Source: a virus
Length of the DNA stretch: 61,603 bases
Strand: one strand, 5' to 3'
Virus record (IMG/VR): IMGVR_UViG_3300030090_000470
Span: 1-61,603 of that record
Position numbers and translations under genes: made by a program. This document shows, piece after piece, positions 5,456 through 33,995 of the stretch. The stretch's first letter is position 1, and the number at the start of each line of letters is the position of its first letter. Under the pieces are notes generated by a model, which was given only the letters and a program-made list of their open reading frames with translations, did not search any database and was not told the origin of the DNA.

Positions 5456-6484
5456 TTATTCTCCTTTTTCCGCATGGTTATTTCTACGCTCTTCTCGGGT
5501 GCGGAGCCAACTAAGACAAGCGTTTTTCCAATCTTTTGGAATTATATAATCACAGTGTGCGTATGCTTCCTCATACTTTCCTGATTTATATAAATAATAA
5601 GTAATTGCCATAGGCACTGCAATATCTCTATAACAGGGGTTTACCCAATTAGCAGCACCTATGATATCTGCAGGGTGGTAATTAAAAAATCTATCGTGTT
5701 CCCAGTCTAAACAATCATGTTCTATAAATAAATCACTAGATTGGTAATTAGAAAATGTTTCGTAAATATTTTCAAAAGGTGTATAAACATCTATAGATAA
5801 ATGTTTAACTTTATCCCATACCTCGTTAAGATAGACATGAAAACTATCACTAACTTGTCGATATACGCCAACGGGTACACCAAGTCTATGTGCAACAAGT
5901 TCTTGTAGCACTGACATATGTACCACGTTAGCACCATACGCACCCCATAGCATATCGTTAGACCTATTACAAACAGTCATATTTAATTTATTATCTCTTA
6001 TCTTAAAATAAATATTAGTATTACAAGGCACGTCTTTACTGACTCTAGCTAAATCTTTATTTGGGTCCCACATCTGTAATACTGCACGTCTATCGTCTGG
6101 GTTTTCTTTAAGAAGTTTTACAATCATGTCTATTTGGTCTTTATGAAAATATTTTCTCCACCTATAACCATAAGCACCCCACAAAGTTTCTCCGTTATCT
6201 GAAAAGTCAGACATACTTGCAACATAATAAGTTAATGATTTTAAATCGTTTCTGCCTGCTAACATCCACATGCTCTCTATAAAGTGAAAGAAAGGATTTG
6301 CATCTCTTGCTTCTATAAGACATACTCTTTCTGTTGGTTTTAAATAAACAGTAGTGACAGGGTCAACACATTCTAATGTTTTACCGTTTCTACTATCTTG
6401 TTCGATATAATTTGTTTCATCTTGAAATAAATCAATGCCTCTTAAAATAGCGTCGTTTACGTTTCTAACTTTTATTACTCTCAT
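5456..6484 (-). CDS. ThyA-family protein: thymidylate synthase or dUMP hydroxymethylase
   Basis: A 342-residue ThyA-fold enzyme, longer than the usual 264. Catalytic Cys154 sits in DVPCN, paired arginines at R132-R133 match the phosphate-binding pair, and R174-S175 and D177 match the RSxD site. N186 in GAYGAN replaces the conserved Asn that reads uracil, so the substrate should be dUMP rather than dCMP. An F/HVY segment near residue 216 carries the H and Y that bind deoxyribose. It could make dTMP or, as in hypermodifying phages, 5-hydroxymethyl-dUMP; motif inspection cannot separate these. The next gene is a thymine-hypermodification family protein, which favours the second reading. It overlaps that gene by four bases. 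Confidence 0.88.
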   Translation of the reverse strand: MRVIKVRNVNDAILRGIDLFQDETNYIEQDSRNGKTLECVDPVTTVYLKPTERVCLIEARDANPFFHFIESMWMLAGRNDLKSLTYYVASMSDFSDNGETLWGAYGYRWRKYFHKDQIDMIVKLLKENPDDRRAVLQMWDPNKDLARVSKDVPCNTNIYFKIRDNKLNMTVCNRSNDMLWGAYGANVVHMSVLQELVAHRLGVPVGVYRQVSDSFHVYLNEVWDKVKHLSIDVYTPFENIYETFSNYQSSDLFIEHDCLDWEHDRFFNYHPADIIGAANWVNPCYRDIAVPMAITYYLYKSGKYEEAYAHCDYIIPKDWKNACLSWLRTREERRNNHAEKGE

Positions 6485-7380
6485 ACACCCTCCACTAATG
6501 GTAAATTTTCATTATAATTATACATAGACCTCGTTCTCCCCTCTCCTTTATAAATACGAGAATACTTATCAAACTCACATAGACCACCCTCTATTTCTCT
6601 CATCTCATAAGGCAAATCATTTCTAAAAGTTATGTGCACTGGTAGTTCTTGTATTGCTATATCGTATAGAGCTACCATTTCACTACACCAATCATGACTA
6701 CGCTGACAAAAATCTAATGGTCTACCTGTTAATCTATTTAGTCCTCGCATAGCTCCTGGACCTGCATTAGCCCATGAATATCTATCGTTTGCTCCTTGTA
6801 GTAGGTAAGTAAATCTTAAATCTGTAACAACTTCGTACGCCATGAACGGTCCCATATATGGATATTCTCGTAATAAATTCCAACAATACTCTAAAGAGCT
6901 TTCGTTATTATCTCTACGTTTTACAAGTTTTTTTATCATATAATCTTTACGTTCCCACATATGAGTTATACATTCCGCTACACCTGTAACTTTGTCCATA
7001 CCGTTTGGGGACTTTACTATATACGCTCCTGTAACCCATTTATCTTGTTTAGTTATTTCTTCTATCGCTTTTTTCCTATCCCAATTTTTAAGTAGGTCGT
7101 TTTTTATTAACGTTCTGCCTGTGGGTATCCAATTAAACCAACGGAAAATAACCGTAGCCATAAGTACGTCATTGTCTTCACGCATAGGCTCTCGTATATG
7201 TTTTTTAAACCAACGAGTTGTTCTGTCTTCTTCGCGAAAAACTTGACAGAACTTATATTGCTGAAGTATAGGGTCATCAGTCCAAGGAGGTGGGAAGTTC
7301 TGGACTTCTTTTTGTAGTCTGATGTTTTCCCTCTCTACTTGCCAATACAAGTACCTATCAAGTTCCTCTTGAATAAACAT
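6481..7380 (-). CDS. Thymine hypermodification protein (HMUDK helical / aGPT-Pplase-like domain)
   Basis: 299 residues with the signature of the helical domain shared by phage 5-hydroxymethyl-dU DNA kinases and alpha-glutamyl/putrescinyl-thymine pyrophosphorylases. The signature is PPPWTDDPILQQYKF near residues 30-45 followed by VFREEDRTTRW (47-57), then the FRWFN helix and the WANAGPGAMRGL stretch near residue 205. No P-loop is visible, so this is the helical-domain-only form and not the kinase. In the known systems these proteins act on 5-hydroxymethyl-uracil or its pyrophosphorylated form in polymerised DNA. It is coupled to the ThyA homologue (four-base overlap) and to a methyltransferase (one-base overlap). 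I am confident of the family and less so of the exact reaction. Confidence 0.8.
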   Translation of the reverse strand: MFIQEELDRYLYWQVERENIRLQKEVQNFPPPWTDDPILQQYKFCQVFREEDRTTRWFKKHIREPMREDNDVLMATVIFRWFNWIPTGRTLIKNDLLKNWDRKKAIEEITKQDKWVTGAYIVKSPNGMDKVTGVAECITHMWERKDYMIKKLVKRRDNNESSLEYCWNLLREYPYMGPFMAYEVVTDLRFTYLLQGANDRYSWANAGPGAMRGLNRLTGRPLDFCQRSHDWCSEMVALYDIAIQELPVHITFRNDLPYEMREIEGGLCEFDKYSRIYKGEGRTRSMYNYNENLPLVEGV

Positions 7381-8219
7381 TACTTTTTACGCAACACCCA
7401 TGAACAGTTATTCGCTACTTCTGGATAAAATGTAGCCGCAACAACTCTTAAAAATTGTCTGCCGTATCTATTTTCTAACATATTAAATTGTTGTGGAGTC
7501 CATCCCACATTAGGAATTTTCATAGCTTTCTTTAAATTAGGCATTTGTATAAATGTTCCTGTAACAGCTTCTATAGTAAAGTTTCTTTCTAATTCATCTT
7601 TTAATTCTTGAAAACCCCACTCATATACGTGGTCTTCAGGTAGCTTATCGTTAGAGCCGTCGTGGTTAGGTGTAGACACAAAACCCAAAGCTCCAGGACG
7701 CATCACCCTAGCTACATCATCAAGCCATGGAGCTATAAACTGTCTACCCATATGTTCAATAACTTCAGTAGACCAAAAGAAATCTATACTTTCGTCCTCT
7801 AATTTAAATACAGGGTCGACTGTTAAATCTTGAATTACTATTGTTGGATTAAAATTCTGAAACCATGTAGATTCCATAATCTTACCTCCTGCGTTTGACC
7901 AATAAGGTAATTCCATTTCACAGGCAGGGTCTATATCAGTGCCATAAAAAGAAGCTATAACATCTGTCTTTTTAATAACATACGCTTTATATAGACTTCT
8001 TAAAGCCCAACACTCACCGCAACCCACCTCAAAGGTGTTAAGCGGTCTGCCTAATCTTTTTGCTTCTTCTATACATAAAGAAGCTATTTTATCAAAACGA
8101 CTCATATGAGCTATCTCATCTGGTCGCCAGTTAGCTAATACACCCGCACTAGCTATATCCATTCTTGTGTTTTTACTGTCGTTTTCATTGACAAGTAATT
8201 TTTTTCTAATTGAAGACAT
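7380..8219 (-). CDS. Class I SAM-dependent methyltransferase
   Basis: 279 residues. Motif I (FEVGCGECWAL, around residue 60-70) and the acidic end of strand 2 (GTDID) make an AdoMet pocket. The STEVIEHM post-motif around residue 150 is typical of small-molecule and nucleotide methyltransferases of the Methyltransf_11/23 type. None of the target-base motifs of DNA adenine or cytosine methyltransferases (DPPY, PC) is present. Because it is the first gene of the operon with the thymine-hypermodification protein and the ThyA homologue, the substrate may be the modified base or a nucleotide, but that is inference. It has a strong Shine-Dalgarno and its own early promoter. Confidence 0.8.
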   Translation of the reverse strand: MSSIRKKLLVNENDSKNTRMDIASAGVLANWRPDEIAHMSRFDKIASLCIEEAKRLGRPLNTFEVGCGECWALRSLYKAYVIKKTDVIASFYGTDIDPACEMELPYWSNAGGKIMESTWFQNFNPTIVIQDLTVDPVFKLEDESIDFFWSTEVIEHMGRQFIAPWLDDVARVMRPGALGFVSTPNHDGSNDKLPEDHVYEWGFQELKDELERNFTIEAVTGTFIQMPNLKKAMKIPNVGWTPQQFNMLENRYGRQFLRVVAATFYPEVANNCSWVLRKK

Positions 8220-13786: not shown

Positions 13787-15235
13787 ATGGAAATTAAATA
13801 TAAATTTAAAACTAAGCCTTATAAACATCAGTTGCAGGCATTACAAAAATCGTGGAGAAAACACGAGTATGCCTATTTTATGGAAATGGGTACAGGTAAA
13901 TCTAAAGTGCTTATTGACAATATAGCTTTATTATATGATAAAGACGCTATTAACTCTGCAATTATAGTAGCACCGAAAGGCGTATATAGAAATTGGTTAG
14001 AAAAAGAAATACCAACACATATGCCAGACCATGTAGAATATAAAATGGCTATATGGAATCCTGCACCTAATAAAAAACAAAAGAAAGATTTAGTAGATTT
14101 GTTTGAACCATGTTTCGAACTTAAAATACTTATTGTAAATGTAGAAGCTTTTAGTACGAAGAAAGGTGTTACTTTTGTAGAAAAATTTATACGTAGTTCT
14201 AACACACTTATAGCTGTAGATGAATCTACTACTATTAAAAATCCGAAAGCACAAAGAACTAAAAATCTACTTAAACTTGCAATTAATACAAAATATAGAA
14301 GAATACTAACAGGCTTCCCTGTTACAAGGTCACCTTTAGATTTATATAGTCAATGTGCATTTCTTAATACACATTTATTAGGTTACGGCTCTTATTATTC
14401 TTTTCAAAATAGATATGCACAAGTTATGAATAGGAAATTAGGAACACATAGTTTTAGACAGGTTGTCGGATACCAAAACCTAGATGAACTTACATCATCG
14501 TTAGATAGTTTTTCTTTTAGAGTTTTGAAAAAAGAGTGTTTAGATTTACCAGACAAAATATACACTACTAGAGAAGTAGAACTTACTCCTGAACAAAAGA
14601 AAGTATATAAAGAATTGACCAAATATGCTGTTGCAGAATTAGAATCTAATGAGATAGTTAGCGTAACATCTATTCTTACACAGATATTAAGACTACATCA
14701 AGTTGTTTGTGGTTTTGTTAAACACGACCAAGGAGACGAAGTAGAGATAAAAAATAACAGGCTAGATGAATTAATAAACGTATTACAAGAAGTTCAAGGT
14801 AAAACTATAATATGGGCGAACTATCAATACGATATTAAAAGAATACTTAAAACATTACAAGGTATTACAGGCACAGATAGTGTAGCGACTTATTACGGTG
14901 AAACACCTGATGAAGAACGCCAAGAAATTATACGTAGGTTTCAAGACCCTAATTCAGAATTACAATATATTATTAGTAATACTCAAACAGGTGGTTATGG
15001 TATTACATTAACTGAAGCTAAAAATGTTATTTACTATAGCAATAATTACGACCTCGAAAAACGTCTACAATCTGAAGACCGTGCTCATCGTATAGGACAA
15101 ACTAATAAAGTAACCTATATTGATTTAGTTGCTAAAGGTACTGTAGATGAAAAAATAGTAAAAGCTCTTAGAAATAAACTTGACTTAGCACAAGAAGTTT
15201 TAGGCGACGAAAAATGGAAAGATTGGATTAATTAA
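13787..15235 (+). CDS. SNF2-family DNA helicase/translocase
   Basis: A 482-residue superfamily 2 SNF2-type ATPase, and the only plus-strand gene. Motif I MGTGKSK (34-40), motif II DEST (145-148), motif III LTGFPVT (174-180), and in the second RecA domain QTGGYGITLTEA (motif V) and QSEDRAHRIGQ (motif VI). These proteins translocate on double-stranded DNA and remodel bound proteins or forks. Phage versions often accompany AEP primases and may act as replicative or branch-migration helicases. The ribosome site is weak (AGAAAG). Its stop overlaps the stop of the convergent gene at 15232 by four bases, with no terminator between. Confidence 0.93.
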   Translation: MEIKYKFKTKPYKHQLQALQKSWRKHEYAYFMEMGTGKSKVLIDNIALLYDKDAINSAIIVAPKGVYRNWLEKEIPTHMPDHVEYKMAIWNPAPNKKQKKDLVDLFEPCFELKILIVNVEAFSTKKGVTFVEKFIRSSNTLIAVDESTTIKNPKAQRTKNLLKLAINTKYRRILTGFPVTRSPLDLYSQCAFLNTHLLGYGSYYSFQNRYAQVMNRKLGTHSFRQVVGYQNLDELTSSLDSFSFRVLKKECLDLPDKIYTTREVELTPEQKKVYKELTKYAVAELESNEIVSVTSILTQILRLHQVVCGFVKHDQGDEVEIKNNRLDELINVLQEVQGKTIIWANYQYDIKRILKTLQGITGTDSVATYYGETPDEERQEIIRRFQDPNSELQYIISNTQTGGYGITLTEAKNVIYYSNNYDLEKRLQSEDRAHRIGQTNKVTYIDLVAKGTVDEKIVKALRNKLDLAQEVLGDEKWKDWIN

Positions 15236-21857: not shown

Positions 21858-22925
21858 TTAACTCATCATGAAGTTAGGAAACCCACCACCGAATCCTGGA
21901 AACATAAAATTACCTATACCACCAGGAGGCATTCCTGTTGGTGGTGTTCCTGTTGGTGGTGTTCCTGTTGGTGGTGTGTATGGTGTTTGTTGAAAAGGTA
22001 AAGACATATTACCTATGCCCGTATAACTTGGTGAAAAACTGTTAGGTGTATAAGCTGTGCCTGTTGCAGGTGTTGCACCTGCATAACCATAACCACCTGC
22101 TAACGGTCCTAAAGAAGCTGTTAACGAGCCAAGATTCTGTACTAATTGCATAGGTAAATTATATTGACCTGTAAAGTTTTGATACGCTAAATCCATTAAT
22201 GATTGACTTCTACCTCTACCTAAACCACCTAAACCCATAGTACGACTTATATCTTGTCCTTGTAATGCAGGAAGTGTTTGTGCTAAATTTTGAAAATTTC
22301 TACCTAATCCTGCTAATGCACCTGCACCTTGTAAACCTCTACGTTGTGCTTGTTCGAAAGCATTTGATGCAAGTTGCGAAGCTTGACCAAAACCACCACT
22401 TCTTATTTTACCGACTGCTTCTGCTGCACCTCTACCTGTAGCTCTAGCTAGTTCATTTTGTGCTACACGACCTCTAGAACCTCCGAAAGCTCCTTGACTA
22501 ACAGCTCTATCACGTAAGCCAATATCTGATTTTGCAAATCCTCTATTAATATCTTCTAAAGTTTGGTCTACAACTGCATCTTCAAAAGGGTTATAAAATT
22601 GGTCAATCATACTCGGGTCAAACTGTCCCGTACTACCACGAGTCATAGCACCTGCTTGATTTAATAAATCTGCAGAAGCACCTAAATATGGTCTATAACT
22701 ACCAATAGCACTATCAGATAGTTGCATAGCTAATCTTTCTCTAGGGTCAAAATCAGCTACCCTTTGTCCTGTATAAGTAAACGGACTACTATCTTCCGTG
22801 CCTAAATTCGCAAACTGGTCTTTAAAATATTGCGTCGCATACGGGAATATAGTTTGTGATAATAAATCACCTATATACCCTGCGGGGGCTTGACTGGAAT
22901 ATTCTTGTTCTTCTCTACTAGCCAT
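21858..22925 (-). CDS. Putative virion protein with Gly-rich arginine patches (355 aa)
   Basis: 355 residues. A QGAFGGSRGRVAQNELAR stretch near residue 145-162 and a Gly/Gln-rich middle are features of a virion protein family I recall from marine podoviruses and myoviruses, of unknown role. The C-terminus has tandem PTGTPPTGTPP repeats and a Phe/Gly/Pro tail (GIGNFMFPGFGGG). It overlaps the 261-aa gene by eight bases. It may be an internal or ejected protein. Confidence 0.6.
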   Translation of the reverse strand: MASREEQEYSSQAPAGYIGDLLSQTIFPYATQYFKDQFANLGTEDSSPFTYTGQRVADFDPRERLAMQLSDSAIGSYRPYLGASADLLNQAGAMTRGSTGQFDPSMIDQFYNPFEDAVVDQTLEDINRGFAKSDIGLRDRAVSQGAFGGSRGRVAQNELARATGRGAAEAVGKIRSGGFGQASQLASNAFEQAQRRGLQGAGALAGLGRNFQNLAQTLPALQGQDISRTMGLGGLGRGRSQSLMDLAYQNFTGQYNLPMQLVQNLGSLTASLGPLAGGYGYAGATPATGTAYTPNSFSPSYTGIGNMSLPFQQTPYTPPTGTPPTGTPPTGMPPGGIGNFMFPGFGGGFPNFMMS

Positions 22926-23733: not shown

Positions 23734-25467
23734 TCAAAAAGTATATATTATTAAAGGTTTTTCTTTACCTTTTACTTTTATAGGTTTTACTGATTTTAGG
23801 TGATGACCGCAATATTTTTCAGTTTCTTCACCTATTAGTATGTTTACACCTGCTTCTTTTGTAGCTGATTCTAGTCTAGCAGCAGTATTTACAGCATCTC
23901 CGATAGCACTATAATCGAACCTTGTATCACTACCCATATTACCAATTACAGCTTCTCCTGTATTTACACCAACACCTATAGCCACTCCTATATTAGCTTT
24001 TTCTATATTTTCTTGTATTTCTTTAGCACATTCTACAGCCACCTGTTCATGGTGTGGTAAATCTAATGGTGCATTAAATATAGCCATCATTGCATCACCG
24101 ATATATTTATCGACCATACCATTGTATTTTTTGACAGCCTCTGATTGTATCGTAAGTGCTTTATTCATTATTTTAGTAACTTCTTCAGGTTCTAATTTTT
24201 CAGATAATGCAGTAAACCCTCTAACATCAGTAAATAAAAAAGTACATCTTCTTTTTTCTCCACCTAGTTTTAATAAATTTGGGTCTTTTTGTAAACGTTT
24301 TACTTGTCGTGGGTCTAAATAATGTTCAAACTGTTTCTTAATTTGTAAACGTAATTTATATTGTTCTCTGAATCTAAGGTAAAAAGCCACACTACCTGAG
24401 ATAAATTGACTTATTAAAGACCAAGTTACATCTATTAAAACACCTGTACCTATCGTATAAGCCCCGTATAAGCCCGTTAAAGCCATAGTTAATAAACCTA
24501 AGGTTATGCCCCAAGTTATTCCTAAATAGCTTATAAACGCCCATACTAGCCCCACAGATACTAAAAATATAAATAGTTCTACTGATAAAGCGTAATCGGG
24601 TATATAAGGGCTATTTTGTATAAGTATCGATTCTGCTAATGCTGCTTGTATTTTATGTGGCTCAACTAATCCAACGGGAGTTGCTATTTGCGGCATAACA
24701 CCATTAGCAGTAACACCAACAAAAACAAACTTACCGTTTACATTCATTTCTTGTAAATCTGTTTCTTCTGTTTCTACCCATGATATCCATTTACGACCGA
24801 AGCTATCTGTTTTCACAGGTGGTAATCCTCTAACTGCTATTTCTTGTACACCGTTATCATTAGTGGTAACTATATATGTAGGTGTATCTGTTAGTATTTT
24901 TAATACTTGCGTTCCGAATGAAGCCGACCAACCGTCAGGCGTTTTTAATAAGAGAGGGATTCTTCTGACAAGTTGGTCAACTTCTGTAGGTGCAATAGCA
25001 ATACCTTGTGGTATATCATCATACTTATTATAATTTTGTTTTATTCCTGAAGAAAGTATACCACCAACATCAGGTCCTCTAATAACAGTGCCTGTGGTTT
25101 TAGGATATTTACCACTACCATTTTCGAAAGTAGCTAAAACACTAGGAGCATAACCTAATGAACTAGCAAATCTTGCATCTCCTCCCATTCTATCTGCTTG
25201 TGGAAAAGATATTACCCAACCAACACCCATAGCTCCTGCACCTAATAATTCTATTTGTATATCAGCTAAGCGTTCTCTAGGCAATGGATAACCGCCTTCT
25301 TTTTCTACATCTTCTTCTGTTATATTCAGTATTACAAAGTTGCCGCTAGGCTCAGGTGTTTTGATAAATGCATCAAAAGTTTTAAGTTTCAATATTTCTG
25401 TTGGGGTGCTTTGAAATATTAAAGGCACGGCTAATAATGGTAATAATAAAAGTATTAGTTTTTTCAT
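23734..25467 (-). CDS. CHASE2-domain class III adenylate cyclase
   Basis: 577 residues: an N-terminal membrane anchor (1-20), a CHASE2 sensor on the outer side of the membrane (about 25-285), three membrane segments (about 294-312, 316-336, 345-363), a linker helix, and a class III cyclase domain (about 405-577). Metal aspartates D414 (FTDVRGF) and D458 (YIGDAMM), adenine-selecting K454 and D518, and transition-state N527 and R531 (NTAARLE) are all present, so it should convert ATP to cAMP. It is a full-length bacterial-type receptor and not a fragment. It is the last gene of the curli cassette; its ATG overlaps the FecR stop (ATGA). The host or phage signal it senses is unknown. Confidence 0.95.
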   Translation of the reverse strand: MKKLILLLLPLLAVPLIFQSTPTEILKLKTFDAFIKTPEPSGNFVILNITEEDVEKEGGYPLPRERLADIQIELLGAGAMGVGWVISFPQADRMGGDARFASSLGYAPSVLATFENGSGKYPKTTGTVIRGPDVGGILSSGIKQNYNKYDDIPQGIAIAPTEVDQLVRRIPLLLKTPDGWSASFGTQVLKILTDTPTYIVTTNDNGVQEIAVRGLPPVKTDSFGRKWISWVETEETDLQEMNVNGKFVFVGVTANGVMPQIATPVGLVEPHKIQAALAESILIQNSPYIPDYALSVELFIFLVSVGLVWAFISYLGITWGITLGLLTMALTGLYGAYTIGTGVLIDVTWSLISQFISGSVAFYLRFREQYKLRLQIKKQFEHYLDPRQVKRLQKDPNLLKLGGEKRRCTFLFTDVRGFTALSEKLEPEEVTKIMNKALTIQSEAVKKYNGMVDKYIGDAMMAIFNAPLDLPHHEQVAVECAKEIQENIEKANIGVAIGVGVNTGEAVIGNMGSDTRFDYSAIGDAVNTAARLESATKEAGVNILIGEETEKYCGHHLKSVKPIKVKGKEKPLIIYTF

Positions 25468-26579
25468 CCGCTACCTTGTCTTATGGTAATAGTAGAATCA
25501 CCACCACCATTTATTTTTATTATATTAGAAACACCGTCTTGTATCAAAATAACTGTATAACCAGCACCAGAATTTAAATCGACCTGAGCCGACTCACTAA
25601 CTTTTCTACGTAAACTAACAGTTTGTCCTGTTACTATCGTTGTTATTTGCGTATCAGAATCTTGTCCTATCGACGTACCTGTTATATTTATACCCGTAGC
25701 TAATGCTAATTGGTCTTCTTCGTCTTCTATAGCTAAAGCATCAAGAACATTTAATAAATCTTCTAAAAAATTAACATCGAGATAATTAATATCTAATTCT
25801 GTAAATTCTAAACTATTATCTTCTAAAAAATCTTCTGCTAAATAATCTATATCTAAATCATTAAAATCTAGTAAGTTAACTGTTTTAGTGCTTGCTGTTT
25901 CTTCTTGTAAAACATCGTCTTCTTGAGGCGGAGATACTATAAGCATATTATCAATAATATCTAGTGATAAATCTAATATCACAGGTTTACTGGGTGCGTT
26001 TTCGAACACATCAACAGTTGTAGCTTGATATGGTTTATTTAATAGAACACTTCCTGTAGCTGTTACTACTTCTATTTCGCCACTAGATAGTCCTAATGCA
26101 TCAGGTAATAAAATTATTAAACTACGCCCTAGCTCATCTACGGTAGCAGTAAAATCAGTCCCACGAATCGCAATATTTGCAGTGGGAGTAGTAAGTTTTA
26201 TATTTTGTTTATCTATACGGTTTAGATTACCTGTAATGAATCTAGCTGTGCCTAAAGCAAAGTTAAGGGACATTTTTGATTTACTAGGGTCTGGGTCATA
26301 GATATACTCATCTATAAGAAGTTGAGAGTGTTCAGTAAGTTTTACTATTGATTTATCTAAAAAAGTAATAGCCATACGACCATTAGTCGTTATAGCTTCA
26401 TCATTACTTTGAATAGCGAATTGTAAATTAGCGTCGTAAGATTTATCTCTTACTATTTGAGCAGAGCCGTTAAGTTCAGATATATCTCCGATATCAACAG
26501 CTTGTGCTTGTGCCTTGGTCGTTTTGAATGACACAAACAGTGCCACTATTACCGCTAGACAGAATCTTGAGCCAATCAT
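25464..26579 (-). CDS. Secreted FecR-domain protein of the curli cassette
   Basis: 371 residues: a signal peptide (1-26, ending AQAQA), a FecR domain (about 36-190) with the typical PTANIAIRGTDF segment near residue 130-141, an acidic Leu/Asp-rich middle with imperfect repeats (LDINYL, FLED), and a Gly-rich C-terminus whose last 40 residues (QDGVSNIIKINGGG...RQGSG) look like a curlin repeat. FecR domains sit in the periplasm, often as sensors or peptidoglycan-associated scaffolds, and occur in some curli loci of marine bacteria. It overlaps the curlin gene by 86 bp and the cyclase by four. Its role here may be nucleation, anchoring or sensing. Confidence 0.85.
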   Translation of the reverse strand: MIGSRFCLAVIVALFVSFKTTKAQAQAVDIGDISELNGSAQIVRDKSYDANLQFAIQSNDEAITTNGRMAITFLDKSIVKLTEHSQLLIDEYIYDPDPSKSKMSLNFALGTARFITGNLNRIDKQNIKLTTPTANIAIRGTDFTATVDELGRSLIILLPDALGLSSGEIEVVTATGSVLLNKPYQATTVDVFENAPSKPVILDLSLDIIDNMLIVSPPQEDDVLQEETASTKTVNLLDFNDLDIDYLAEDFLEDNSLEFTELDINYLDVNFLEDLLNVLDALAIEDEEDQLALATGINITGTSIGQDSDTQITTIVTGQTVSLRRKVSESAQVDLNSGAGYTVILIQDGVSNIIKINGGGDSTITIRQGSG

Positions 26580-27198
26580 TATCTAATGTACTTGATTGTG
26601 TAATGTTAAATGTTCTAGAGTTACCTGTTTGGTCTAAGTAAAAATAACCCCCCGCATAACCAGAACCTGTAAAATTGACTGTATTACTATCACCGTCCAC
26701 ATCTACATAAGAAGTACCGCCGTCATAATTTATATCGAAATCGAAAGTATTTCCATCGCCTTGAATAATCCAATCTAAATCTAATGTTGCAGCTAATGCA
26801 GTTGTTCCATGGTCTAAAGTGAATGTATTAGTACTGCCAGTAACGTTTACGTTGTAATTAGAGTTGTCTATACCATATGTATTTGTTGGGTCACCCTGTA
26901 TAGTAAATGTATTACTATCTCCATCAAACTCAAAAAAGCCTGTGATAGAATCTCCTAGAATATCGCCTAGAAATTTGTTTGTATCCCCTAACTGGTTTAT
27001 ATCAAGAGTTAATGAAATACCGTCTAAATCTAACGCAGTCAAAGAGCCTGCAGAAGAATTAAGACCGCCAATAATATTACCTGAACCAAGTTGTTCTAAA
27101 TCAATATTAGCTGTTGCCCCTGATTGGTCGACATATATCTCATTATCAGCAGCAAAAACTAATGTTGAAATTAATAATAAACTAATTAATATTTTCAT
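26494..27198 (-). CDS. Curlin-repeat protein (CsgA/CsgB-like)
   Basis: 234 residues from the ATG at 27196-27198, chosen for its GGGAGG Shine-Dalgarno six bases upstream. A signal peptide (1-17, VFAAD) is followed by curlin-like strands: a first Q-x-G-x4-N...Q-x-G-x2-N unit (25-41) and about six later G-(D/S/N)-x-N-(T/R)-(F/V) units (71-76, 93-98, 121-126, 147-152, 169-174, 192-197). The repeats are longer and more Asp-rich than in E. coli CsgA. Two cysteines (C222, C234) end the protein, unusual for curlins. It should form or nucleate extracellular amyloid. Only one such gene is present, so it may serve as both major and minor subunit. Confidence 0.82.
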   Translation of the reverse strand: MKILISLLLISTLVFAADNEIYVDQSGATANIDLEQLGSGNIIGGLNSSAGSLTALDLDGISLTLDINQLGDTNKFLGDILGDSITGFFEFDGDSNTFTIQGDPTNTYGIDNSNYNVNVTGSTNTFTLDHGTTALAATLDLDWIIQGDGNTFDFDINYDGGTSYVDVDGDSNTVNFTGSGYAGGYFYLDQTGNSRTFNITQSSTLDNDWLKILSSGNSGTVCVIQNDQGTSTSC

Positions 27199-28003
27199 CA
27201 ATTTCCTCCCAGAAACTTTTATCATACCCTATTTTGACGATTTGCAAAACAGCTTCTTCTATAGCTCGTTGTAAAGCTAATGTTGCAGGTTCGTTTTCGG
27301 CGTCTCCTGTTTCTATTTCCACAAGTTCTGTGCCTGCTTCAATAAACTTAAAAACGTCTTGAGACTGACCATAACTATATAATTGTTTACTAACTAAAAC
27401 GTCTATTAAAACTTCTCCTGTCGCTACAGATACCATACGTAAAGCTACTGTAATATTGTCTACTCTATATTGTTTACTTGTTCCTATACCTAAATATCTA
27501 GCTCCGATACCTCCACTTTGAATATTTGTATCAAAACCAATAACGGCTCCTTCCATCAACACGCCTGCAAAAAGCAAAGGCATAATGGGTTTAGGTCCAT
27601 CAGTTTTTTCGTTTTGTTCTCTAGCGGAACGTATTAATTGTCTTTCTTTCGTTAAATTATCAAGACCAACTCTTTCAGCTACTCTGAAAAACTTTCCATT
27701 AGACGTATGTTTTAAACTTCTAATAAGTAGGTGGCTTGGTGCTTGCGTAAGTGCTGTGGAAAATAAAGCAAATTCACTGTTACTTTTACGCTGACCTGTT
27801 TGGTCTGTAAAACTATTAGGATAAACAGCAACAACAATAGGAACTTTAGGCTGTGCTATATTTAATAATTCTTCGGATTGGATTTCTAAAATAGTCGGTA
27901 AAGTTTTACCTTGTTGTATAGTAGTATCTACAGGAGCTAAGCTGCAACTAGAAAGAAAAATCGCCAACAGGCAACTGTATCTCGGTAATATTTCCATCAG
28001 CAT
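27182..28003 (-). CDS. csgG: CsgG, curli secretion channel lipoprotein
   Basis: 273 residues, close to E. coli CsgG in length. The signal peptide ends in a lipobox (LSSC, lipidated C20). Conserved blocks follow: DQTGQ (67-71), FSTA (81-84), ERxxIRxA (120-127), EGAVIGFDTN (151-160), SGGIGARYLGIG (163-174) and ATGEVL (194-199). CsgG forms a nonameric outer-membrane pore for curlin export. The phenylalanine of the constriction is kept (F81), but the residue before it is Leu where E. coli has Asn, and the Tyr51-equivalent site is Ser or Asn. It overlaps csgF by 56 bp and the curlin gene by 17. Confidence 0.96.
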   Translation of the reverse strand: MLMEILPRYSCLLAIFLSSCSLAPVDTTIQQGKTLPTILEIQSEELLNIAQPKVPIVVAVYPNSFTDQTGQRKSNSEFALFSTALTQAPSHLLIRSLKHTSNGKFFRVAERVGLDNLTKERQLIRSAREQNEKTDGPKPIMPLLFAGVLMEGAVIGFDTNIQSGGIGARYLGIGTSKQYRVDNITVALRMVSVATGEVLIDVLVSKQLYSYGQSQDVFKFIEAGTELVEIETGDAENEPATLALQRAIEEAVLQIVKIGYDKSFWEEIDENIN

Positions 28004-28433
28004 CTGTTATTTTGAGAGTTATGATTCCATTTTCAATACTATATTCTATAGTGTTTCCCTCTAGGGTCAAAGTCCCTTCTGTGCTAGGAGTTTCTCCGAA
28101 TAAATTTTCTACTAATTGTCTTGATAATTGTGCATAGATTCGTGACTCAAGATTCCTTATAAATCTAGCTAATGTAGTATTTTCTTTATCTCTTTCTATT
28201 TGTTCTTGTATAGCTTTTAATTCTTCTTTGATACTCATTTTACGATTAAACTCTTGATTTTCTATCGTTAAATAATGTGAAGAAGTATTAATACCATTGA
28301 AAGAAGGGTTTTTAAATTTATGAACTATTTGGTCAGCCCATAAAGGGTTTGTTAAAACTACAAGAAAAAAGAAAATACCAAGCAAGCCTGCTATCTTATA
28401 AATCCACGTATTATCAGTCTTTTCTTTGGTCAT
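27948..28433 (-). CDS. csgF: CsgF, curli channel accessory protein
   Basis: 161 residues. A hydrophobic signal segment (about 11-31, ending LWAD) precedes the CsgF N-terminal motif HKFKNPSFNGIN (38-49), which matches the FRNPNFGGNP segment that inserts in the CsgG pore. The C-terminal half repeats the family's beta pattern (NTIEYSIENGIITLKITD and NITEIQLPVG). E. coli CsgF is about 138 residues, so the middle is somewhat longer here. It couples curlin secretion to surface nucleation. It is the first gene of the cassette and overlaps the upstream membrane protein by 20 bp. Confidence 0.93.
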   Translation of the reverse strand: MTKEKTDNTWIYKIAGLLGIFFFLVVLTNPLWADQIVHKFKNPSFNGINTSSHYLTIENQEFNRKMSIKEELKAIQEQIERDKENTTLARFIRNLESRIYAQLSRQLVENLFGETPSTEGTLTLEGNTIEYSIENGIITLKITDADGNITEIQLPVGDFSF

Positions 28434-28764
28434 CTCTTTTTGCTTTAGCTATTTTACTACTATCTATTAAATTAGGTACTCCAAGTATAGTCTTAATTAA
28501 GGTATCTTGTCTAATTATTTCATTGTCTAAACTACGTACTCTATCTATTAAGGCTACTAATATACCATGTTGTGTATCTAATTTAGTACCTAATCTTTCT
28601 TCTATGGCGTTTATCTGACCTGCTACTTTTTCGTCAACAACATCTAATTTTTGTTCCATGCCGTCAACAATACGTATTACTAATTTATATATAAACCAAC
28701 CAAGACCTATTGCCGCTGCTATAGGAAAACCAACCTCTTGTATAAGTGTTACAGCTTGTTCCAT
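28414..28764 (-). CDS. Small membrane protein with N-terminal TM and coiled coil
   Basis: 116 residues: one membrane helix (about 10-28, GFPIAAAIGLGWFIYKLVI), then a long charged coiled-coil and a basic end. Very similar small proteins occur in the late regions of cyanophages and pelagiphages. A holin-like or spanin-like role has been guessed but not shown. It overlaps csgF by 20 bp and the thermonuclease by one base, so the cassette is joined to a normal phage late gene. Confidence 0.6.
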   Translation of the reverse strand: MEQAVTLIQEVGFPIAAAIGLGWFIYKLVIRIVDGMEQKLDVVDEKVAGQINAIEERLGTKLDTQHGILVALIDRVRSLDNEIIRQDTLIKTILGVPNLIDSSKIAKAKRDDQRKD

Positions 28765-31150: not shown

Positions 31151-31594
31151 TTATTCTCCTTTTAATACTCTTTCTTTTAAACGAATCGCACGAGGACCAA
31201 CTTGGGTCGCCCAACGACTATCCATCATTTCAACTGCAGCAGTTTCCCAATCATGTTCTTCTAATGCAGCTAAAAACTTTTTAAACTTTAGTAATCGTGT
31301 AATACCTAAATTAAAACACATATTTGCTAAAACTCTTTGTATATCTTCAGGTAAATGTATCCACCACTCTAAGTTCCTATCTAATTCTGTAGTTACAATA
31401 TTTATATCTTTTTCAAAACATTCTTTTATTCTATCTTCAGATACTGGTGTATCTACATCTTGACCGTGTTCGGGGTCTGATTCTAATATTAGATGTCCTA
31501 TACCAAATGTAGGATATCCGAGGTGGTCTAAATAAATTTTATTTACACAACCTTCATCGAAAGTTAATTCCTCTCTTAATTTATCTACATTCAT
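31151..31594 (-). CDS. T4-type lysozyme endolysin (GH24)
   Basis: 147 residues from the ATG at 31592-31594, which overlaps the upstream stop (ATGA); a longer reading from 31711 would add 39 unrelated residues. Catalytic E14, D23 and T29 have the same spacing as E11, D20 and T26 of T4 lysozyme, within the DEG...LDHLGYPTFGIGH pattern, and a C-terminal SRWATQVGPRA matches the family end. It should hydrolyse peptidoglycan for release. No signal peptide, so a holin is needed. Confidence 0.93.
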   Translation of the reverse strand: MNVDKLREELTFDEGCVNKIYLDHLGYPTFGIGHLILESDPEHGQDVDTPVSEDRIKECFEKDINIVTTELDRNLEWWIHLPEDIQRVLANMCFNLGITRLLKFKKFLAALEEHDWETAAVEMMDSRWATQVGPRAIRLKERVLKGE

Positions 31595-31917
31595 TTTATC
31601 GGGACTATTGTTGCTCCGTTTGTTTGTACTGTTATTTTGCCCAGAGTTGCCGTTCCCTGAACGCCATTTTCTTCCCCACTGTATAAATTTATCCATTCTA
31701 CACCACTCCATAACTGTAATTGATTAGTGCTTAGATTAAAAATTATATCACCTTTATTGAATTTATTTAAATTTCTTTGCGTCTCATTAACTGTCAAAGT
31801 TGCGTCTATATCTTTAGAATTTAAAGATAATTCAAGAACTCTAACTAATCTGTTAAATAATTCAGGACTAAGAGGACCAACTGCTATCGGTAATTTAGTC
31901 TGTAATAATTTAGCCAC
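31591..31917 (-). CDS. Small late protein, probably virion (108 aa)
   Basis: 108 residues with a helical N-terminal half and a beta-rich C-terminal half containing NLSTNQLQLWSGVEW (about 61-75), a pattern often seen where a fibre or tail tip protein reads out 'label' strands. It is coupled to both neighbours by one- or four-base overlaps. Likely a tail-associated protein; no named family. Confidence 0.6.
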   Translation of the reverse strand: MAKLLQTKLPIAVGPLSPELFNRLVRVLELSLNSKDIDATLTVNETQRNLNKFNKGDIIFNLSTNQLQLWSGVEWINLYSGEENGVQGTATLGKITVQTNGATIVPIK

Positions 31918-33812: not shown

Positions 33813-33995
33813 CTAAATAAAAGTAGCAAATACTATAGAGCCTAGTATAAACGGATAAACCCCCCATAACAACATTTCTAATCTTTTAAATTTAGCAGAG
33901 CCTTCGTCTAATCTTTTTTCTATATATTCGTAGCGAATAGCACATTCTCTCTCATGCGCATTAAGTTCTGCTAAAGCGTCCTTGTCAGTTGCCAT
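33813..33995 (-). CDS. Small membrane protein, XhlA-like holin candidate (60 aa)
   Basis: 60 residues: a charged amphipathic helix (about 1-38, with HERECAIRYEYIEKRLDEG) followed by a C-terminal membrane helix (about 42-60, LLWGVYPFILGSIVFATFI). This layout is that of haemolysin XhlA-type proteins that cooperate with lysis enzymes. It shares its ATG with the stop of the 53-aa membrane protein (TAATG). Candidate holin or membrane anchor. Confidence 0.6.
   Translation of the reverse strand: MATDKDALAELNAHERECAIRYEYIEKRLDEGSAKFKRLEMLLWGVYPFILGSIVFATFI

Follow-up and report, generated by a model that had tools for sequence, protein, structure and literature searches.

What would a phage gain from genes of the bacterial curli system? 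The question is raised by the IMG/VR virus record IMGVR_UViG_3300030090_000470, which we analysed over its whole length of 61,603 nucleotides (61.6 kb, hereafter the window). According to its ORF (open reading frame) list, six consecutive and overlapping ORFs, running on the minus strand from position 28764 down to 23734, encode a small membrane protein, CsgF, CsgG, a curlin-repeat protein, a FecR-domain protein and a CHASE2 adenylate cyclase (Table 1). The answer that we hold with moderate confidence is that this module, located in the late region of the phage genome, would provide the infected cell with a curli-type (type VIII) secretion system equipped with a periplasmic sensor-cyclase. Since such a module has already been published, this headline claim is known and the window represents one more member; four refinements, concerning the FecR-domain protein, a gene labelled 'histidine kinase', the curlins of phage Melnitz and the joining of two systems, seem new with respect to the searchable open-access literature.

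A curli module among late phage genes

The identities of CsgF, CsgG, FecR, CHASE2 and the cyclase, proposed in an earlier interpretation of the bare DNA letters (the sequence-only reading), are borne out by Pfam hidden Markov models (HMMs) scoring well above cut-off. That of the curlin holds at the family level: although the window protein alone falls below the Curlin_rpt threshold (E = 0.065), 27 of 31 aligned homologues match this model (best E = 2.5e-10), and the Gln, Gly and Asn columns of the repeat are invariant in the alignment. The five genes that the sequence-only reading had assigned to the cassette do belong to it, but the 116-amino-acid (aa) membrane protein had been omitted, and the genes, described as 'fused', overlap without being joined. 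The overlaps measure 20 nt (small membrane gene/csgF), 56 nt (csgF/csgG), 44 nt (csgG/curlin, counted from the first ATG), 86 nt (curlin/fecR) and 4 nt (fecR/cyclase). The 86-nt overlap is identical in 66 loci; there, at 26494-26579, the FecR signal peptide is coded almost entirely within the 3' end of the curlin gene, in another frame. A scan for promoters and terminators gave a signal no better than that of shuffled sequences.

As had also been claimed, late phage genes stand on both sides of the module: a DNA-ejection-protein homologue (21858-22925) on one flank and, on the other, genes for an SNase, an endolysin (31151-31711) and a virion structural protein. The window phage can be classed as HTVC023P-type, related to viruses of the ocean bacterium SAR11, its TerL being closest to those of 023Pt_psg01 (58%), HTVC027P (53%) and HTVC023P (51%).

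The module is no chance arrangement, and its genes are under selection. A first scan of IMG/VR, made with CsgG, found 232 encoded CsgG relatives, and the order SNase-TM-csgF-csgG-curlin-fecR-cyclase, TM being the small gene with a transmembrane (TM) segment, recurs among phage loci. A second scan, made with FecR, reached pelagimyophage-like contigs. The complete series from the TM gene to the cyclase was found in 59 loci, and two TM genes with a second curlin in 34 loci, counts that cover related sequences. When the window was compared pairwise with relatives (five comparisons), the ratio of nonsynonymous to synonymous substitutions (dN/dS) was 0.03-0.22 for all six genes, a sign of purifying selection.

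The window being a metagenomic virus record, the module might be a chimeric assembly or bacterial contamination, one of the circumstances under which the sequence-only reading would have failed. This is extremely improbable, as many independent contigs carry the same order with phage flanks. In addition, csgG lies near both ends of one 73.9-kb record, the pattern that a circular genome of close to 60 kb would give when assembled past its full length. The composition of the cassette is not an outlier and shows no break: its GC content is 34.0%, against 35.7% for the window and a mean of 35.6% (standard deviation 1.2) for 4.7-kb segments.

Table 1. Features of the curli module in the window.
Feature	Coordinates	Strand	Observations
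Small membrane protein, 116 aa	28414-28764	-	One N-terminal TM segment, then probable coiled coil
CsgF	27948-28433	-	Pfam PF10614, E = 1.9e-17; surface partner of the CsgG pore
CsgG	27182-28003	-	Pfam PF03783, E = 2.5e-47; outer-membrane curli secretion pore
Curlin-repeat protein (CsgA/B-like substrate), 243 aa	26494-27225	-	Family-level Curlin_rpt match
FecR-domain protein, 371 aa	25464-26579	-	Pfam FecR, E = 3.5e-10
FecR curlin-like C-terminal tail, about residues 310-371	25464-25652	-	Six short strands, ending VILIQDGVSNIIKINGGGDSTITIRQGSG
CHASE2 adenylate cyclase	23734-25467	-	Pfam CHASE2, 9e-22; Guanylate_cyc, 6.8e-21

Channel, substrate and small membrane protein

The window CsgG aligns over residues 11-266 with the solved structure of the E. 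coli protein (E = 3.3e-44) and has a lipobox-like LSSC near residue 20. At the position of the E. coli PYP-ASNF loop region, which we take to be the constriction of the pore, the phage protein reads SNSEFALF, and because this segment differs, the properties of the pore may differ as well. CsgF, which is conserved across the phage loci, has a signal peptide followed by a mature N-terminus with the motif F-x-N-P-x-F-x-G. The curlin, in turn, has a signal-peptide-like N-terminus and curlin repeats at its N- and C-terminal ends, and its AlphaFold model (predicted local distance difference test, pLDDT, 80.3) consists of short strands in regular succession, a predicted beta-solenoid. The structures matched by this model are generic solenoids only, namely SufB/SufD (Z about 16), tailspikes and pectate lyases.

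The score against phage tailspikes, together with the position of the module among genes for virion and ejection proteins, would suit a curlin that forms part of the virion or of an adhesin, being either exported or packaged, and that causes particles to adhere to cells or to one another. We regard such a role as very unlikely: both the curlin and FecR have signal-peptide-like N-termini, which indicate export by Sec, packaging would not need a CsgG/CsgF channel, and the solenoid matches are generic.

The gene preceding csgF, sometimes present in two copies, codes for a protein of 80-130 aa with one TM segment, at about residues 11-33 in the window protein, and a coiled-coil-like stretch. Judging from position and copy number, it is probably the gene labelled 'histidine kinase' by Wittmers et al. 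(2022; PMC9599517). We found no kinase or HATPase domain in 22 homologues of 80-130 aa, one of which matched a HAMP model at E = 0.15, and we reject that label for want of a kinase domain. A scan for this family, restricted to the best 80 of 590 confirmed stretches, that is, to the closest relatives, showed csg genes alongside the small TM gene in all 77 informative loci. In 17 loci the TM genes are on the opposite strand, still within the same locus, and the gene was not found in the examined stretches of three curli-less HTVC023P-type phages. The small membrane gene belongs to the curli module, and its product would be an inner-membrane accessory of assembly.

The same protein gives weak scores with YvrJ/holin-like models, which would agree with a different use of the channel: CsgG and CsgF might form a gated pore in the envelope that times lysis or takes up solutes, the fibre function having been lost. 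A lysis pore of the pinholin/secretin kind was proposed by Buchholz et al. (2022; PMC9004378) on the ground that phage Melnitz lacks curlins, and uptake by Zaragoza-Solas et al. (2020; PMC7029224). The proximity of lysis genes such as the endolysin and the lack of CsgE are also compatible with a pore. However, Melnitz encodes two curlins, detected by HMM with 240 and 209 bits and both labelled 'curlin associated repeat protein' in its GenBank record, so that the pore-only proposal starts from a weak premise. HTVC008M likewise has two, and curlins are present and constrained in the phage loci. Moreover, the TM protein tracks the curli genes and not the phage lysis genes. We therefore consider a pore without fibres unlikely. 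The small protein as a general phage holin is not supported by its place beside the csg genes in the informative loci of those best 80 stretches; a better holin candidate is a 60-aa ORF near the endolysin (33813-33995), with a C-terminal TM segment and XhlA-like by eye.

The FecR-domain protein, its tail and the cyclase

The FecR-domain protein comprises a signal-peptide-like N-terminus, a FecR beta-domain, an acidic linker of low model confidence and a curlin-like tail. The Pfam FecR domain was recognized in 47 of 47 homologues, and residues 57-212 of the model, a true FecR fold, superpose on the surface-signalling domain of PupR (Z 15.6, root-mean-square deviation 2.5). The hydropathy profile contains a single hydrophobic segment, residues 1-20, and no second TM segment; the cytoplasmic anti-sigma region was not found in the phage FecR, and no Sigma70_r2 sigma factor was detected in the window record or in four related records. 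Given this signal peptide with no other membrane segment, the lack of a sigma factor and the curlin-like tail, we do not regard the phage protein as an anti-sigma regulator, and we reject a role in iron regulation as well.

The tail, a separate unit of six strands after the linker (strand pLDDT about 82-88 in the model), ends in a recurrent pattern: a Gln, 9-24 residues, alternating aliphatic residues, a second Gln and the end of the chain. This pattern is present in 146 of 147 phage FecRs, in none of 74 bacterial ones and in 3% of shuffled tails, counts that are only descriptive because the pattern was written post hoc and the phage sequences are related. When an HMM of the tail was run against the remaining ORFs of the loci, which number more than 7,000, phage curlins came out on top, accounting for 21 of the 23 matches with E < 1 (best 2.3e-5), and no shuffled curlins were matched. 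In a profile comparison with the curlin family, no other segment of FecR gave any match. We call the tail curlin-like, a likeness suggested by its sequence, and do not claim homology with curlin as proven.

The last gene of the module encodes CHASE2 and cyclase domains, both found in 26 of 26 homologues, and matches cyclase structures. All six catalytic residues are present (D414, D458, K454, D524, N527 and R531), completing the class III set of two metal-binding Asp, the purine Lys/Asp pair and the transition-state Asn/Arg pair. In 7 of the 26 phage homologues, the window not among them, the transition-state Asn (N527, codon near 23889) is replaced by Ser. The CHASE2 sensor domain is predicted to be periplasmic and the cyclase to be in the inner membrane.

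Such a cyclase could be the very purpose of the module, FecR and CHASE2 raising cyclic AMP (cAMP) during infection and the curlins just providing the ligand. The intact catalytic residues would allow this. Furthermore, within 8 kb of bacterial FecR genes there is often a CHASE2-type cyclase, in SAR11 too, and the pairing recurs in curli-less bacteria; a Burkholderia operon in which FecR is paired with a CHASE2 kinase regulates biofilm formation (PMC5192318). By contrast, of 118 genomes from the family Pelagibacteraceae (SAR11) only 6 encode any domain that binds cyclic nucleotides (cNMP), no such domain was found in the window phage record, and the published modules sometimes lack FecR and the cyclase (PMC9599517). 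A device mainly for signalling seems to us quite unlikely. As for cAMP signalling at large, raised by the sequence-only reading, the conserved catalytic residues speak for it, whereas a route through a CRP-type receptor looks doubtful in view of the same domain counts. Five SAR11 loci without csgG encode a FecR of their own, 190-191 aa long, and, at a distance of a few kb, a large CHASE2-type cyclase.

Proposed working of the module and its relatives

Returning to curli-type secretion, what we infer from these genes is the following. Sec would take the curlin and FecR into the periplasm; CsgG would be the outer-membrane pore and CsgF its link to the cell surface, the site at which the curlin, a predicted beta-solenoid, would assemble. 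FecR would remain periplasmic or bound to the pore and make its curlin-like tail available to the substrate, acting as a nucleator, an anchor or a gauge of subunit load, and the inner-membrane CHASE2 cyclase, its partner, would read that state and produce cAMP. The small membrane protein or proteins would be obligate accessories of curli assembly, not a kinase. The benefit for the phage might be to keep prey or progeny close, or to exclude rival phages. An amyloid fibre on the infected cell, as the sequence-only reading suggested, is the most economical interpretation, although it is not new (PMC7029224, PMC9599517). More tentatively, as a possibility rather than an expectation, phages may have built a self-monitoring amyloid exporter in which the FecR domain with its tail nucleates or senses the fibre within the periplasm and informs the CHASE2 cyclase, with the help of dedicated small membrane proteins. 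If true, this fibre-sensing circuit would be unlike known bacterial curli systems. Reinterpreting FecR and the 'histidine kinase' replaces an account based on iron and two-component regulation by testable binding, seeding or sensing of curlin by the FecR tail.

Several results weigh against such a fibre-exporting module. CsgE, the periplasmic gate of the E. coli type, was searched for and is absent, as had been noticed before; Alphaproteobacteria and pelagiphages are reported to lack it as well (PMC9599517), so that its presence does not define that branch. Foldseek searches with the curlin and FecR models had no solved curlin among the matches listed. The tail HMM did not retrieve bacterial curlins, the hhalign match between the tail and the curlin family is short and weak (E = 0.0025, probability 12%), and the terminal pattern was defined after the sequences had been seen. 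To these must be added the scarcity of cNMP-binding domains in SAR11 and their absence from the phage record. Finally, host aggregation, another suggestion of the sequence-only reading, is unproven: infection by Melnitz, the sole cultured carrier examined, produced no clumping in cytograms or transmission electron microscopy (PMC9004378).

The closest relative of the module is the one described by Wittmers et al. in HTVC023P-type podoviruses and pelagimyoviruses, together with its oceanic distribution, metatranscriptome expression and alphaproteobacterial origin, and with aggregation, superinfection exclusion and uptake as hypotheses (PMC9599517). The two modules agree in phage group, in components and in gene order (membrane gene, CsgF, CsgG, CsgA/B, FecR, adenylate cyclase), so that the pelagiphage clusters mentioned in the sequence-only reading are confirmed by both publication and synteny, but the labels 'histidine kinase' and iron-linked FecR regulator do not fit the sequences that we examined. 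'Sibling capture' was proposed by Zaragoza-Solas et al. (PMC7029224) and appears in PMC9599517 as well. The pelagimyophage HTVC008M and the methylophage Melnitz possess homologues of CsgF, CsgG, the curlin, FecR and the CHASE2 cyclase, ordered as in the window (CsgG identity 48% and 40%, respectively); unlike the window phage, they are myophages, and each has a pair of TM genes and an additional curlin. Alphaproteobacterial curli loci share CsgF, CsgG and curlins with the phage module, whereas none of the five that we inspected contains FecR, the CHASE2 cyclase or the small TM gene. Conversely, bacteria have FecR genes near a CHASE2-type cyclase or CHASE2 kinase, as in the phage, with no curli linkage in the loci seen and with FecRs devoid of the curlin-like tail. 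The phage module therefore joins two systems, a curli exporter and a FecR/CHASE2 sensor pair.

CsgG occurs in only 2 of the 118 SAR11-family genomes, both times on phage-like contigs. These two contigs with the module, L267 (G406:C1) and L266 (G441:C11), one of which carries terminase and portal genes, hint at the host, although they may reflect binning. In L267 the module is just before the SNase and terminase genes, a placement unlike that in the window. The module is also present in a phage genome, likely circular (PBPT01000002.1, 60,834 bp), that is binned in a metagenome-assembled genome (MAG) of Neomarinimicrobiota, and similar phage-like contigs are found in Flavobacteriaceae and Pirellulales MAGs. 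The csgG of a 'Salmonella phage' (OR851715.1), an unverified 1.5-kb record with coverage 2.07 and possibly contamination, was not used.

Elsewhere in the window, genes for a thymidylate synthase, a 5-hmdU-kinase-type helical domain (5456-7380) and a methyltransferase are consecutive at 5456-8219, where thymidine hypermodification is probably encoded. The first two are consistent with the report by Wittmers et al. of a thymidine-modification pair in clades also holding the curli module (PMC9599517). A SNF2-type helicase gene (13787-15235) lies on the plus strand, its neighbours being on the opposite one.

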